NCBI GenBank assembly: GCA_030429005.1
Contig: JAUIDP010000001.1
Location: forward strand, 1 to 64,000
Source of the DNA: Gammaproteobacteria bacterium
Lineage (GTDB): Bacteria > Pseudomonadota > Gammaproteobacteria > Steroidobacterales > Woeseiaceae
Direction of reading: 5' to 3'
Length of the DNA stretch: 64,000 nt
This document shows positions 24,611 through 29,272 of the stretch, piece by piece. The notes beneath the pieces were generated by a model. It saw only the letters and a list, made by a program, of their open reading frames with translations, was not told the DNA's origin and did no database searches. How positions within the stretch are numbered: position 1 is the stretch's first letter; every line of letters begins with the position of its first letter. Made by a program: the position numbers and the translations under genes.

Positions 24611-26032
24611 TCAGCGCTCGTAAACCCAGCGTAACAATGCTTCCTGCACCTCCTGCCCGGGTCCGCGGTGAATGTCTTCGTGATTCTGCAGTGTCACTAC
24701 GGCAAAACGGCGGCCGCTCCTGGCCTGCAAGTAACCGGCGATGGCGACAACATCGTCAAGCGAGCCGGTTTTCAGGTGGGCACTGCCATGCAGCCTGGCG
24801 TCGTCAAATCGTCGCCGCAGCGTGCCATCTTTGCCGGCCAGGGCCAGCGATGACACATACTCCGGCATGTACGGCTGCCGCCAGGCATATTCGAGCAAGG
24901 CGCCCATATCGGAAGCAGAAATACGCGCTTCGCGTGACAGGCCCGCGCCGTTCTCGAGTTGCAGTGCCTTAACATCCAGCCCGGTTTCTTCCAGCCAGCG
25001 TTGAATAACCTCGCGGCCGCCGGCCTCGGTGCCGGGTTCGCCGAGAACCTCGGCGGACAAGGTGTACAACAACTGCCTGGCCATCACATTGTTACTGTGC
25101 TTGTTGATCCGCGTGATGATGTCGGACATTGGCAGGGACGGAAAGCGAATCACCGGTTCCAGGTCGTCGTCCGCCTTGACGTTTTGCCAGCCGCCGAGAA
25201 ACTCGCCGCCCGACTCGCGCCATAGCGACAGGAACAGTCCGTACGCAAACTCGTTGTGGCTGAGCGCCGTGCGGTCCATTGCGTACAGCTTGCAGCCGCC
25301 CGGGAAACGGCCACTCAATGTCATGCGGTTCAATGCCTCGTTCGCTGAAATGCTAATGCCGCGCTGGTAGCCCCGGCAGGCACCTGGCGCAACGGAAAGG
25401 CGATTATCGACAGTCAGGTTTTCCATCGGTGGATCGAGCCAGACCCGCACCTGGTTCGAGTCGTGCTGCGGCTCGAACCAGTAGCGCACGACCTTGAAAT
25501 TCATCAGCAATGCATTCGGTGCAACGTTGTATGCACGCAGTGGCTGCCGATCGAAAGCGGCCGGATCGTGATCCTCTGCATAAAAGAAACTGTCGTCGAT
25601 AAGCAGATCACCCTCGATATCATGTATGCCGAGCTGGCGAACCTGGCGCAACAATTGCCATACGCGTTCCGTAACCAGGAACGGATCGCCATAGCCTTTG
25701 ATAAGCAGGTCGCCGTCCAGGCGGCCGTCTTCGACATCACCGAGCACATAGACGTCGGTGTGCCAGGCGTATGCGGGCCCGAGCAGATCCAGCGCTGCGA
25801 GGGTCGTCACCAGCTTGATAATGGAGCCCGGGTTGCGTGCGATCGCGTCATTCCACCGCAGAATGACTGCACCGCTGTCGAGGTCCTGCACGTACAGGCT
25901 CAGGGACGAATCCGGTACCTGCCGAACGTCGAGGACCGATCTTACGCCTGCCGGCAATTCCGGCTCGTCGGCCAGTCCCGGCAAGGACACCAGGACAATC
26001 AAAAGCAGTAACAATCTAGACATTCTTGTCAA
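24611..26032 (-). CDS. dacB: D-alanyl-D-alanine carboxypeptidase/endopeptidase (PBP4)
   Basis: NPGSIIKLVTTLAAL (SxxK), HSNNVMARQLLYTL (SxN), HLKTGSLDDV (KTG). Confidence 0.92.
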   Translation of the reverse strand: MTRMSRLLLLLIVLVSLPGLADEPELPAGVRSVLDVRQVPDSSLSLYVQDLDSGAVILRWNDAIARNPGSIIKLVTTLAALDLLGPAYAWHTDVYVLGDVEDGRLDGDLLIKGYGDPFLVTERVWQLLRQVRQLGIHDIEGDLLIDDSFFYAEDHDPAAFDRQPLRAYNVAPNALLMNFKVVRYWFEPQHDSNQVRVWLDPPMENLTVDNRLSVAPGACRGYQRGISISANEALNRMTLSGRFPGGCKLYAMDRTALSHNEFAYGLFLSLWRESGGEFLGGWQNVKADDDLEPVIRFPSLPMSDIITRINKHSNNVMARQLLYTLSAEVLGEPGTEAGGREVIQRWLEETGLDVKALQLENGAGLSREARISASDMGALLEYAWRQPYMPEYVSSLALAGKDGTLRRRFDDARLHGSAHLKTGSLDDVVAIAGYLQARSGRRFAVVTLQNHEDIHRGPGQEVQEALLRWVYER

Positions 26033-27812
26033 TCCCGTAAGTGCGAATCCGGTCTGCCAGGGTTGTTGGCTTCACGCCCAGCAGTTCCGCCGCGCCGCCA
26101 CTACCGGACACCTTGCCATCAGCCTGTTTCAATGCGGCGACGATGTTGTTTTTCTGAAACTCCCGCATCTCCGATTCCGTCAGGAATTTCTCATCGGGGA
26201 CGTCATTCTCCGCAACCGAGCGTGCGTCGCCGCCCGGGTCCGACATCGACAGGTCGAGTCGCAGCGTATTTCCCGATGATAGTATGACGGCTCGCTCTAT
26301 CACGTTTTTGAGCTCGCGCACATTGCCTGGCCAGTTATATCGCAACAACAAGTCTGCCTGTGCCCGTGTCAGCTGCAGGACCGGTCGCCCGAAGTCACTG
26401 CAGGTCGCCTCGAGAAAGTGCTGCGCCAGCTGGATGACATCGTCACCGCGCTCACGCAGCGCCGGCACATCGACCGGGAATACACTGAGCCGGTAGAACA
26501 GGTCCTCGCGAAATTCGCCCGCGACAATCTGCTGCTCCAGGTCCTTGTTGGTCGCGGCGATGACGCGCACGTCGACCGAACGCGTGATATCGTCGCCAAC
26601 GCGTTCGAACTCGCTTTCCTGCAGCACCCGCAACAGCTTGCTTTGCAGCTCCAGCGGAATCTCGCTGACTTCGTCAAGGAAGATTGTGCCACCGTCGGCC
26701 AATTGGAATCGTCCGACCCGGTCCCGGTGGGCACCGGTGAAAGCCCCTTTGACGTGGCCGAAGAATTCGCTTTCGAACAATTCTTTCGGGATCGACGCGC
26801 AATTGACTTTCACCAGCGGGCCTTCGGCGCGCGGACTTTGTGCATGGATGATGCGCGCGATCAGTTCCTTGCCAACACCCGACTCCCCATGCAACAGAAC
26901 CGTTGCCGGTGTTTCGGCGACAGCGGCGACCCGATTCAGCGTCTTCATCAACGCCGGGCTCGTGCCGACAATCTGGCCGTGATTCATCGCGACGTTGACC
27001 TCTTCGCGCAGGTAGTCGCGTTCCTGCTCCAGTTCCTCGCGCAAACGGGCATTTTCGAGAAGCGCCGCTCGCAATTCCCGCTCAACGCGGAGCCGCTCGG
27101 TCACGTCCTTCGACGCGATCAACATGCGGTCGACCTTGCCGGTGGCATCGCGGCTGGAAATGGCGGACACCAGCAGGTCAAGCACCTTGCCATCCTTGGT
27201 GACGACCTGGCGCTCTTCATTGTTGTACTCGCCACGGTCGATCAACTCGCGCAGCTTGCTGCCGCTCAGCGCCGCCTTGTCCGTTGGTGCGAAGAACTCG
27301 CGAATAGGCCGGCCAATGACCTCTTCGCGCTTGTAGCCCATTTTTTGCAGCCAGTGATTGGTGGCCGTCACGATATTGCCGTCGGCATCGACCGAGTGCA
27401 GCATCGCGGGCGTGAAGCGGTACAGGTTGCGATACTTGAGATTGGCGCGGGCGGCGTCGGAAATCTCGGTGTACATGGCGACCGTACGCACAAATTCGCC
27501 GGACTGGTCATAGTCGACCAGCGAGCTGGTCAGACAGGAAACGACCTCGCCGCTCGCGGCAACAAATGAAATGGGTTTGTTCTCCAGCTTGCCGGTGCGC
27601 CGCAACGCCGGCAGGAACTCCTTTTCGATGCGCCTGGCCGATTGTTCGGTGACAAACTCGGTCGGCTTGCGGCCCACGACCTCTTCACGCGTAAATCCAA
27701 GGCGCGCGAGGAACGCGTCGTTAACATCGAGGTACCTGCCATCCGGCCCGATCGATGTTGCCATCGTCGGCGCCTTGCGAAACAGCCATTGATAGTCTTC
27801 ATTCGTCAGCAT
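26016..27812 (-). CDS. sigma-54-dependent enhancer-binding protein with two PAS domains, AAA+ and Fis-type HTH
   Basis: GESGVGKELIARIIH, GAFTGAHRDRVGRFQLADGGTIFLDEV, NWPGNVRELKNVIERAV, C-terminal HTH AAELLGVKPTTLADRIRTYGI; no receiver domain. Confidence 0.95.
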   Translation of the reverse strand: MLTNEDYQWLFRKAPTMATSIGPDGRYLDVNDAFLARLGFTREEVVGRKPTEFVTEQSARRIEKEFLPALRRTGKLENKPISFVAASGEVVSCLTSSLVDYDQSGEFVRTVAMYTEISDAARANLKYRNLYRFTPAMLHSVDADGNIVTATNHWLQKMGYKREEVIGRPIREFFAPTDKAALSGSKLRELIDRGEYNNEERQVVTKDGKVLDLLVSAISSRDATGKVDRMLIASKDVTERLRVERELRAALLENARLREELEQERDYLREEVNVAMNHGQIVGTSPALMKTLNRVAAVAETPATVLLHGESGVGKELIARIIHAQSPRAEGPLVKVNCASIPKELFESEFFGHVKGAFTGAHRDRVGRFQLADGGTIFLDEVSEIPLELQSKLLRVLQESEFERVGDDITRSVDVRVIAATNKDLEQQIVAGEFREDLFYRLSVFPVDVPALRERGDDVIQLAQHFLEATCSDFGRPVLQLTRAQADLLLRYNWPGNVRELKNVIERAVILSSGNTLRLDLSMSDPGGDARSVAENDVPDEKFLTESEMREFQKNNIVAALKQADGKVSGSGGAAELLGVKPTTLADRIRTYGIDKNV

Positions 27813-27824
27813 CGCGCCAGTATA

Positions 27825-27880
27825 TACGGAATTTCGTAAAAAGAGGAAACGAAAAACCGTAATTTACGGAATTTCGTAAA
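27825..27880. promoter_or_regulatory. putative activator (UAS) sites: two copies of TACGGAATTTCGTAAA 40 bp apart
   Basis: Identical 16-mers at 27825-27840 and 27865-27880; core TTTACGnAATTnCGTAAA is palindromic; lies between divergent EBP gene and sigma-54 promoter. Confidence 0.75.
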
Positions 27881-27923: not shown

Positions 27924-27940
27924 TTGGCACGGTCTGTGCA
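27924..27940 (+). promoter_or_regulatory. sigma-54 (-24/-12) promoter TTGGCACGGTCTGTGCA
   Basis: One mismatch to YTGGCACGRNNNTTGCW with correct GG-GC spacing; ~50 nt upstream of small ORF; divergent EBP gene. Confidence 0.85.
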
Positions 27941-27991
27941 CTAACAGCACTGAACAACATTTTTTTGGACTGATTACTTCAAGGATCGAAA

Positions 27992-28147
27992 ATGAACACC
28001 AAGTACTTCGAAAACGGACTCGCCCTGATGGCCGCCGTGCTGATTCTGATCGCGGTTTCGTTTGCGGCATCTTCGGCACTGACCAGCCAGCAGGACCTTG
28101 ATTTTCCGCGCTTCGACCGTACATCGAAACTGGTTGCCAGTCCCTGA
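27992..28147 (+). CDS. 51-aa single-TM small protein MNTKYFENGLALMAAVLILIAVSFAASSALTSQQDLDFPRFDRTSKLVASP (not in ORF track)
   Basis: Direct translation; AAGGA upstream of ATG; directly downstream of sigma-54 promoter. Confidence 0.72.
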   Translation: MNTKYFENGLALMAAVLILIAVSFAASSALTSQQDLDFPRFDRTSKLVASP

Positions 28148-28267
28148 CGGCAACCAGGTCCCAGACCTTCCGGGGTCGCGGCACGATCAGGTCTCTCTCC
28201 CCCCGATAGCCTGATTTGCGATTCCGGGAACTTGCGATACTCCCCCCCAGTATCGCGATTGCTTGGG

Positions 28268-28348
28268 CGCCGGAGACCGTTCCGTGTCGGATCGGCCCGC
28301 TGAATGACTCACAGATTTCAGCTCTCCGGCGTCTATCTTTTTTCTTTC
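28268..28348 (+). terminator. structured element ending in T-rich tract; candidate terminator of the sigma-54 transcript
   Basis: CGCCGGAGA (28268-28276) / TCTCCGGCG (28323-28331), inner GCTGAA/TTCAGC stem, followed by TCTATCTTTTTTCTTTC. Confidence 0.5.
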
Positions 28349-28677
28349 GGAGAAACCCTGTCGCGATGGCGCTCTGCCCGCTCGGCGCGGACGCCGGACG
28401 ACCTGCTGCTGATCGACTCGCGTATCTTGCGCAGCCACGACCGTGCCCAGGCAAACTCGATGCTCAGGATGGCCAGACCGACAGGAATGACCACGAAGGC
28501 GGGCCCGGGGAGCACGATCAGGGCAATGCCGATAAGCAGCACGGTTGAACCAACGACGAATACCGCGACTCGCCGTGCAACCTTGTATGTCTTGTCGACC
28601 GCGTTGTTAATCACCGGTACATCCTGGCCCATCATTTCGATTGTTTTTTGACAACGATTACGTACTCTTTGTTGCAT
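28333..28677 (-). CDS. PGPGW-type small transmembrane protein
   Basis: VLLIGIALIVLPGPAFVVIPVGLAILSIEFAWARSWLR; start ATG at 28677. Confidence 0.75.
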   Translation of the reverse strand: MQQRVRNRCQKTIEMMGQDVPVINNAVDKTYKVARRVAVFVVGSTVLLIGIALIVLPGPAFVVIPVGLAILSIEFAWARSWLRKIRESISSRSSGVRAERAERHRDRVSPKEKR

Positions 28678-29272
28678 GCGCTCGCAAGCACTCATTGTAC
28701 TGACGTTTCTTCTCGCCAGTCCCGGCACGCCCGGCAGCAGCGACCAGGCCCTGACGTTCGAGTTTACCGCTGCCGAGGCAACGGTCCTCGCGCGTGCCTC
28801 GAACCGGCCGATCGAGCTGCCCGAACTGCGCTTTGTCGTACGCGCGCAGGCTTTTTGCCCGTCGCCGCAGGTACCTGCTTCGATTTCGGTCAGCATCGCT
28901 GACACCCGCATGACCATTACACCGGCTGACGAAGCAGTATTTGAACACGAAATTCTGGTGCCAGCGAAGCAACTCGCCCCGGTAGTGGCTACGGGTTTTT
29001 GCCTGGCGGACGACCCGGGCAGCATGCAGGAAATAAGACTCGAGAGCGCCCTCAGCGCGCAATTGTCGCTGCGCTGCAACGGGGAAAACAGCGAATCGAT
29101 CAGTTATGCGACAGCAGGCCTGGACGTTGCCTTGCTCTGCGAAAATCCCGAGCCGCTGAAACCCGAAGCAGCTTACGGCGAAGACGCTTCCGATGCTTCA
29201 GCGACCAGCAGCTTGCGGCTGAGGAAATCCAGCGTCTTCAACCAGGCATCTTCGGCAGCCTCGGCATCGTAG
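28676..29272 (+). CDS. secreted hypothetical protein
   Basis: N-terminal signal peptide MRSQALIVLTFLLASPG; start codon overlaps divergent gene start. Confidence 0.55.
   Translation: MRSQALIVLTFLLASPGTPGSSDQALTFEFTAAEATVLARASNRPIELPELRFVVRAQAFCPSPQVPASISVSIADTRMTITPADEAVFEHEILVPAKQLAPVVATGFCLADDPGSMQEIRLESALSAQLSLRCNGENSESISYATAGLDVALLCENPEPLKPEAAYGEDASDASATSSLRLRKSSVFNQASSAASAS

Follow-up and report, generated by a model that had tools for sequence, protein, structure and literature searches.

What does a sigma-54 promoter with a divergent activator gene drive when the reading frame behind it encodes 51 residues? In the preliminary description of the window (the whole 64,000-nt stretch of DNA analysed), the answer was a single membrane peptide, perhaps one serving envelope stress or signalling. 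The small ORF proved to be a real gene under purifying selection. The region 3′ of its stop codon (about 28168-28343), on which that description was silent, holds a predicted structured RNA and a terminator; nor did it mention the three palindromic activator sites or the promoter-like element within the ORF (Table 1).

Table 1. Features of the locus, in window coordinates
Feature	Position	Strand	Basis
Sigma-54 activator, divergent from the unit: two PAS domains, sigma-54 AAA+ domain, Fis-type HTH	26016..27812	-	Pfam matches
Activator site 1 (ATATACGGAATTTCGTAAA)	27822..27840		palindrome, predicted
Activator site 2 (AAACGAAAAACCGTAA)	27847..27862		fixed position in relatives, predicted
Activator site 3 (TTTACGGAATTTCGTAAA)	27863..27880		palindrome, predicted
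Sigma-54 promoter TTGGCACGGTCTGTGCA (GG-N10-GC); predicted start ~27951	27924..27940	+	kept in all loci
Ribosome-binding site AAGGA	27981..27985	+	sequence; kept in relatives
Small protein, 51 aa, exported or single-TM	27992..28147	+	conservation, purifying selection, protein profile
RpoH-type promoter-like element CTTGATT-N13-CCGTACAT in the ORF; predicted RNA start ~28131	28097..28124	+	frame-independent conservation; window's only strict match
RNA hairpin 1, apical loop with CTCTCCCCCC; longer stem ~28168-28226	28187..28214	+	folding, C-loop survey
RNA hairpin 2, 10-bp stem, loop CCCCCCC	28232..28258	+	folding, C-loop survey
Branched intrinsic terminator (GGCGCCGGAGA...TCTCCGGCGTC) and T-run	28264..28343	+	folding

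The small protein and its activator

The ORF reads letter for letter as it had been described, its AAGGA site lies 6 nt before the ATG, and the predicted sigma-54 start falls 41 nt upstream of the ATG, in line with the ~40 nt originally given. No other plausible plus-strand gene precedes the terminator, as had also been claimed. The point on which the preliminary description had staked its case, conservation of the frame in relatives with the promoter and the activator, was borne out: all 46 loci having an activator orthologue contain a hydrophobic small ORF with a ribosome site downstream of a sigma-54 promoter. Over the first 30 codons pN was 0.32 and pS 0.66, and 560 of 561 pairs had the lower value for pN. 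A profile of the small protein, searched alone against 297 genomes of the order, gave 36 new loci for examination, one of them (L189) a false match. The other 35 all adjoin the activator and have the sigma-54 promoter; at least two activator sites were present in 33 of them, and the C-loop hairpins described below likewise in 33. These held-out loci include other Woeseiaceae genera and a complete single-contig genome (L165).

Across loci the protein ranges from 30 to 115 aa. The long form consists of a signal or transmembrane segment, an alanine-rich middle and a tail, LDIxLxxxTS; the 51-aa form in the window has both ends without the middle. By inspection, AxA precedes D, E or G after the hydrophobic stretch in many forms, so that export and cleavage are as likely as a membrane anchor; the membrane peptide first proposed appears to be either exported or membrane-bound. 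Neither the short nor the long forms gave anything convincing against Pfam and NCBIfam, and no curated family was matched. An AlphaFold2 model of a long form, a single long helix (mean pLDDT 70, pTM 0.34), was uninformative. Some long forms (L113, L115, L168) have a TonB-box-like stretch (DEIVVTA) right behind the signal peptide. Further along the window, a 198-aa ORF with a signal-peptide-like start (28676-29272, plus strand) adjoins a PGPGW membrane-protein gene and has no match in Pfam or NCBIfam.

Of the 60 genomes searched for the activator, 37 belong to the same genus, the window's own among them; 36 of these have a near full-length orthologue, at ~70% identity within the genus, and the remaining one (G029) has a distant homologue only. 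In seven more members of the order the orthologue is 51-61% identical. Those relatives that carry names are Woeseia sp. and uncultured Woeseiaceae, which places the window in this family. In nearly all loci two or three palindromes lie upstream at constant positions; the three predicted sites, with a consensus of about WTACGRWWTTYCGTNA, lie at ~-100, -78 and -61 from the promoter start. Within the window's genome (~85% complete) the site motif occurs at this locus and as one other single match, and the palindrome array, at the pattern used, at this locus only. Because the array is confined to this locus, the activator looks dedicated to the unit; together, the GG-N10-GC promoter, the upstream sites and the adjoining sigma-54 AAA+ gene have the appearance of a sigma-54 unit with its own enhancer-binding protein. 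The idea of a dedicated activator for one tiny peptide therefore held in its first half, given an ORF beside the activator and an array found only here, and found no support, as worded, in its second, since a conserved structured RNA is predicted on the same transcript.

Distant activator homologues in other gammaproteobacteria (L142, L143, L147, L148; L151, L152) have the same palindrome arrays beside different neighbour genes, whose products, assigned to families by eye, are either NrtA/CmpA-like (a transporter protein) or DUF3187-like (an exported protein); here the activator site has outlived a change of target. Woeseiaceae also have a paralogous activator with one PAS match (L034, L039, L126), which has ACCACA...TGTGG-type sites and its own sigma-54 promoter, preceding a small ORF and an NTF2-like gene. 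At one locus (L154, G225:C16:115930-117724) a frameshift or an assembly error has broken the activator gene into two frames, and the rest of the module is intact.

A poly-C-loop RNA behind the stop codon

In the window, the region after the stop codon is predicted to form two hairpins, with six cytosines in one loop and seven in the other, followed by the branched terminator (z -4.47 for 207 nt). The RNA of relatives begins with a hairpin whose loop is UCUCUCCCCC, continues with one or two more, in many cases bearing NGGA loops, and closes with a hairpin whose loop is CCCCCC; the middle hairpins are missing from the window copy. The terminator stem (28276-28325 and its counterparts) contains a conserved inner domain (TCCGTGTCGGATCGGCCCGCTG) in about two-thirds of Woeseiaceae, the others having a plain terminator.

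The stems covary: 58 cells were changed on both sides, compared with 17.6 in shuffles, and 95.5% of cells were paired, compared with 87.0% in shuffles, in an alignment that was fitted to the model and so somewhat favours it; sliding the partners destroyed the signal. In 35 of the 37 genus genomes a covariance model of the RNA (R1) found what is in effect a single copy, located here; the model had no match in other families. The loops reach further than the model does. At least one C-loop hairpin, with an apical loop of at least five cytosines, was present in 44 of 46 three-prime regions; the corresponding counts were 16 of 300 for random windows and 30 of 230 for shuffles, and this contrast is conservative because the random windows were drawn from the same loci and still included the RNA itself. 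In four other families of the order poly-C-loop hairpins persist on an RNA of otherwise unrelated sequence, with loops such as ACTCCCCCCCTCCCCCCA on a near-perfect closing stem. Overall, 77 of 81 loci keep the C-loops. Their persistence on unrelated RNA bodies across several families may mean that the loop itself is the selected feature.

When 17 loci and the window region were compared with Rfam, no family reached the curated cut-off. Judged by its sequence, the RNA is conserved and previously undescribed, and belongs to no Rfam family. It has the structural hallmarks of C-rich-loop sRNAs, namely stable hairpins with apical cytosine runs and an intrinsic terminator, and would most likely act like them.

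A promoter-like element within the small-protein gene

Near its 3′ end, the ORF of most Woeseiaceae contains a second conserved signal. The element CTTGAWAT-N10-GnCCnYAnAT, with constant spacing and a poorly conserved centre, was found in 55 of 67 Woeseiaceae loci; its strict form was present in 37 loci where shuffles gave an expectation of 0.06, a count whose independence is overstated because the loci share ancestry. The search required TTGA and CC, so that the independent evidence consists of C at 0, A at 6, G at 18, A at 24 and T at 27. Most copies lie in frame 0 of the ORF, six in another frame and eight in non-coding DNA; the constraint therefore acts on the nucleic acid. CTT, a minority leucine codon in these ORFs, encodes the leucine of the LD motif in 32 of 37 cases. 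About a tenth to a fifth of the Woeseiaceae loci lack the element or have a degenerate copy. Outside the family it was found in one of 14 loci, against 0.6 expected, and was counted as absent.

The -35 half and the spacing fit the published sigma-32 consensus, CTTGAAA-13/15-CCCCAT (PMC3168786); the -10 half is just CCnYA and deviates from CCCCAT. Two sites in the same genomes offer a comparison. Most clpB genes are preceded by CTTGAAA-N12-CCnCAATyT, and in L227-L238 the 3′ end of xerC, upstream of hslV, contains CTTGAYTT-N10-GCCCAGATAT in a stretch that also encodes conserved protein. Both share the -35 half of the embedded element and come close to it in -10 half and spacing. The xerC-end element is itself another possible heat-shock promoter in coding DNA. 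groES, tried as a pure sigma-32 control, was ambiguous because a sigma-70-type -10 can also be read in its site, downstream of which lies a CIRCE-like repeat. The genomes tested encode RpoH, with a score above the curated cut-off in nine of ten. In our judgement the embedded element is probably an RpoH-type promoter for the RNA.

Processing of the sigma-54 transcript, as for GlnZ or CcsR, could instead be the sole source of the RNA; the embedded element would then be an RNA signal such as a cleavage or pairing site. The element does lie directly upstream of the RNA, families without the element still have C-loop hairpins, and many sRNAs are released from 3′ UTRs. A conserved pair of short blocks at constant spacing around an unconserved centre nevertheless resembles a -35/-10 pair, and their spacing and sequence fit heat-shock promoters; we regard processing alone as rather unlikely.

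Less probable still is that the locus is an ordinary small-protein gene, the peptide being its only functional product and the hairpins an elaborate mRNA-stabilising 3′ UTR with a terminator. The purifying selection on the peptide and its presence in every locus agree with this. Yet a stabilising 3′ UTR needs no poly-C loops, which nearly all loci keep, including those of families with an otherwise unrelated RNA, and the stems around these loops covary. Several genomes, moreover, have lost the peptide tail and still have the RNA. In these short-ORF genomes the promoter-like element persists as well, which makes the RNA at least an equal partner of the peptide.

CsrB and RsmY titrate the translational regulator CsrA through GGA loops, and the genome encodes CsrA, but a similar sponge role for this RNA, suggested by the NGGA-loop hairpins between two C-loop hairpins in most relatives, is very unlikely: NGGA hairpins are missing from the window copy and from L013, and several relatives have loops without GGA at that place, the C-loops being kept.

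Proposed working of the locus and known counterparts

We consider it likely that the locus is a nested two-product gene, comprising a sigma-54-driven small exported or single-TM protein and a C-loop sRNA that represses G-rich translation starts, with an embedded RpoH-type promoter in Woeseiaceae. The sequences supply the conserved ORF, promoter, sites and C-loops, the covarying RNA structure and the frame-independent embedded element; from these we infer transcription from both promoters, the identity of the second sigma factor, target pairing, and the location and role of the protein. The PAS domains would sense a signal, upon which the activator, bound at the three upstream palindromes, would switch on sigma-54 transcription. 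The single divergent transcript would carry the small protein, then the structured RNA and the intrinsic terminator. In Woeseiaceae the second, RpoH-type promoter, in the last codons of the protein gene, would yield an RNA of ~210 nt alone. The C-loops would pair with G-rich stretches at ribosome-binding sites, so repressing the translation of several mRNAs. More tentatively, the C-terminal codons may double as a heat-shock promoter for the poly-C-loop sRNA, two alternative sigma factors may feed one RNA, and the tail LDIxLxxxTS may owe part of its conservation to that of the promoter.

A crude search for complements of the loops at start codons (GGGGGAGAG before ATG) gave 10 matches in 12 genomes and none in the window's genome. 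The recurring matches, to an aldehyde dehydrogenase and a lipoprotein in two genomes each, are too weak to count as targets.

In marine sediments Woeseiaceae rank among the most abundant bacteria; we found nothing on their small RNAs in the open literature. The locus provides a conserved, single-copy candidate regulator together with its activator and promoters, and suggests that poly-C-loop sRNAs recur in distant lineages. A promoter-like element that is kept in coding DNA whatever the frame can also mislead analyses of peptide conservation.

In layout, the nearest counterpart is ccaF1 (RSP_6037)-CcsR1-4 of Rhodobacter sphaeroides, a small-protein gene with stress-induced sRNAs in its 3′ UTR under RpoE/RpoH-class control (PMC8625941, PMC8307010). 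The ccaF1 product is a DUF1127 RNA-binding protein, whereas that of Woeseiaceae is an exported-type peptide; the R. sphaeroides locus has no sigma-54 activator, its promoter precedes the protein gene, and CcsR1 is not homologous to the Woeseiaceae RNA (12.7 bits with the model, against a cut-off of 65.3).

In loop mechanism, the closest systems would be mycobacterial 6C/B11 and Xanthomonas sX13. The two hairpins of 6C/B11 have loops of about six cytosines and repress G-tract mRNAs (PMC10470900; also PMC12395582). It is a free-standing sRNA without a small protein, from another phylum, and the Woeseiaceae RNA has no Rfam match to link them. sX13 has stable stems whose C-rich apical loops target G-rich motifs close to translation starts, Hfq not being needed (PMC3771888). 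Like the Woeseiaceae RNA it is gammaproteobacterial; in this comparison, too, the latter is without an Rfam match. No peptide, linked activator or sigma-54 promoter is known to us for sX13.

Where sigma-54 control of a 3′ UTR RNA is concerned, the nearest system is GlnZ of Enterobacteriaceae, an RpoN-dependent sRNA that a protein gene carries in its 3′ UTR (PMC9731577). Its host gene encodes glutamine synthetase under NtrC, and GlnZ pairs through a seed of its own, whereas the Woeseiaceae RNA would pair through its poly-C loops.
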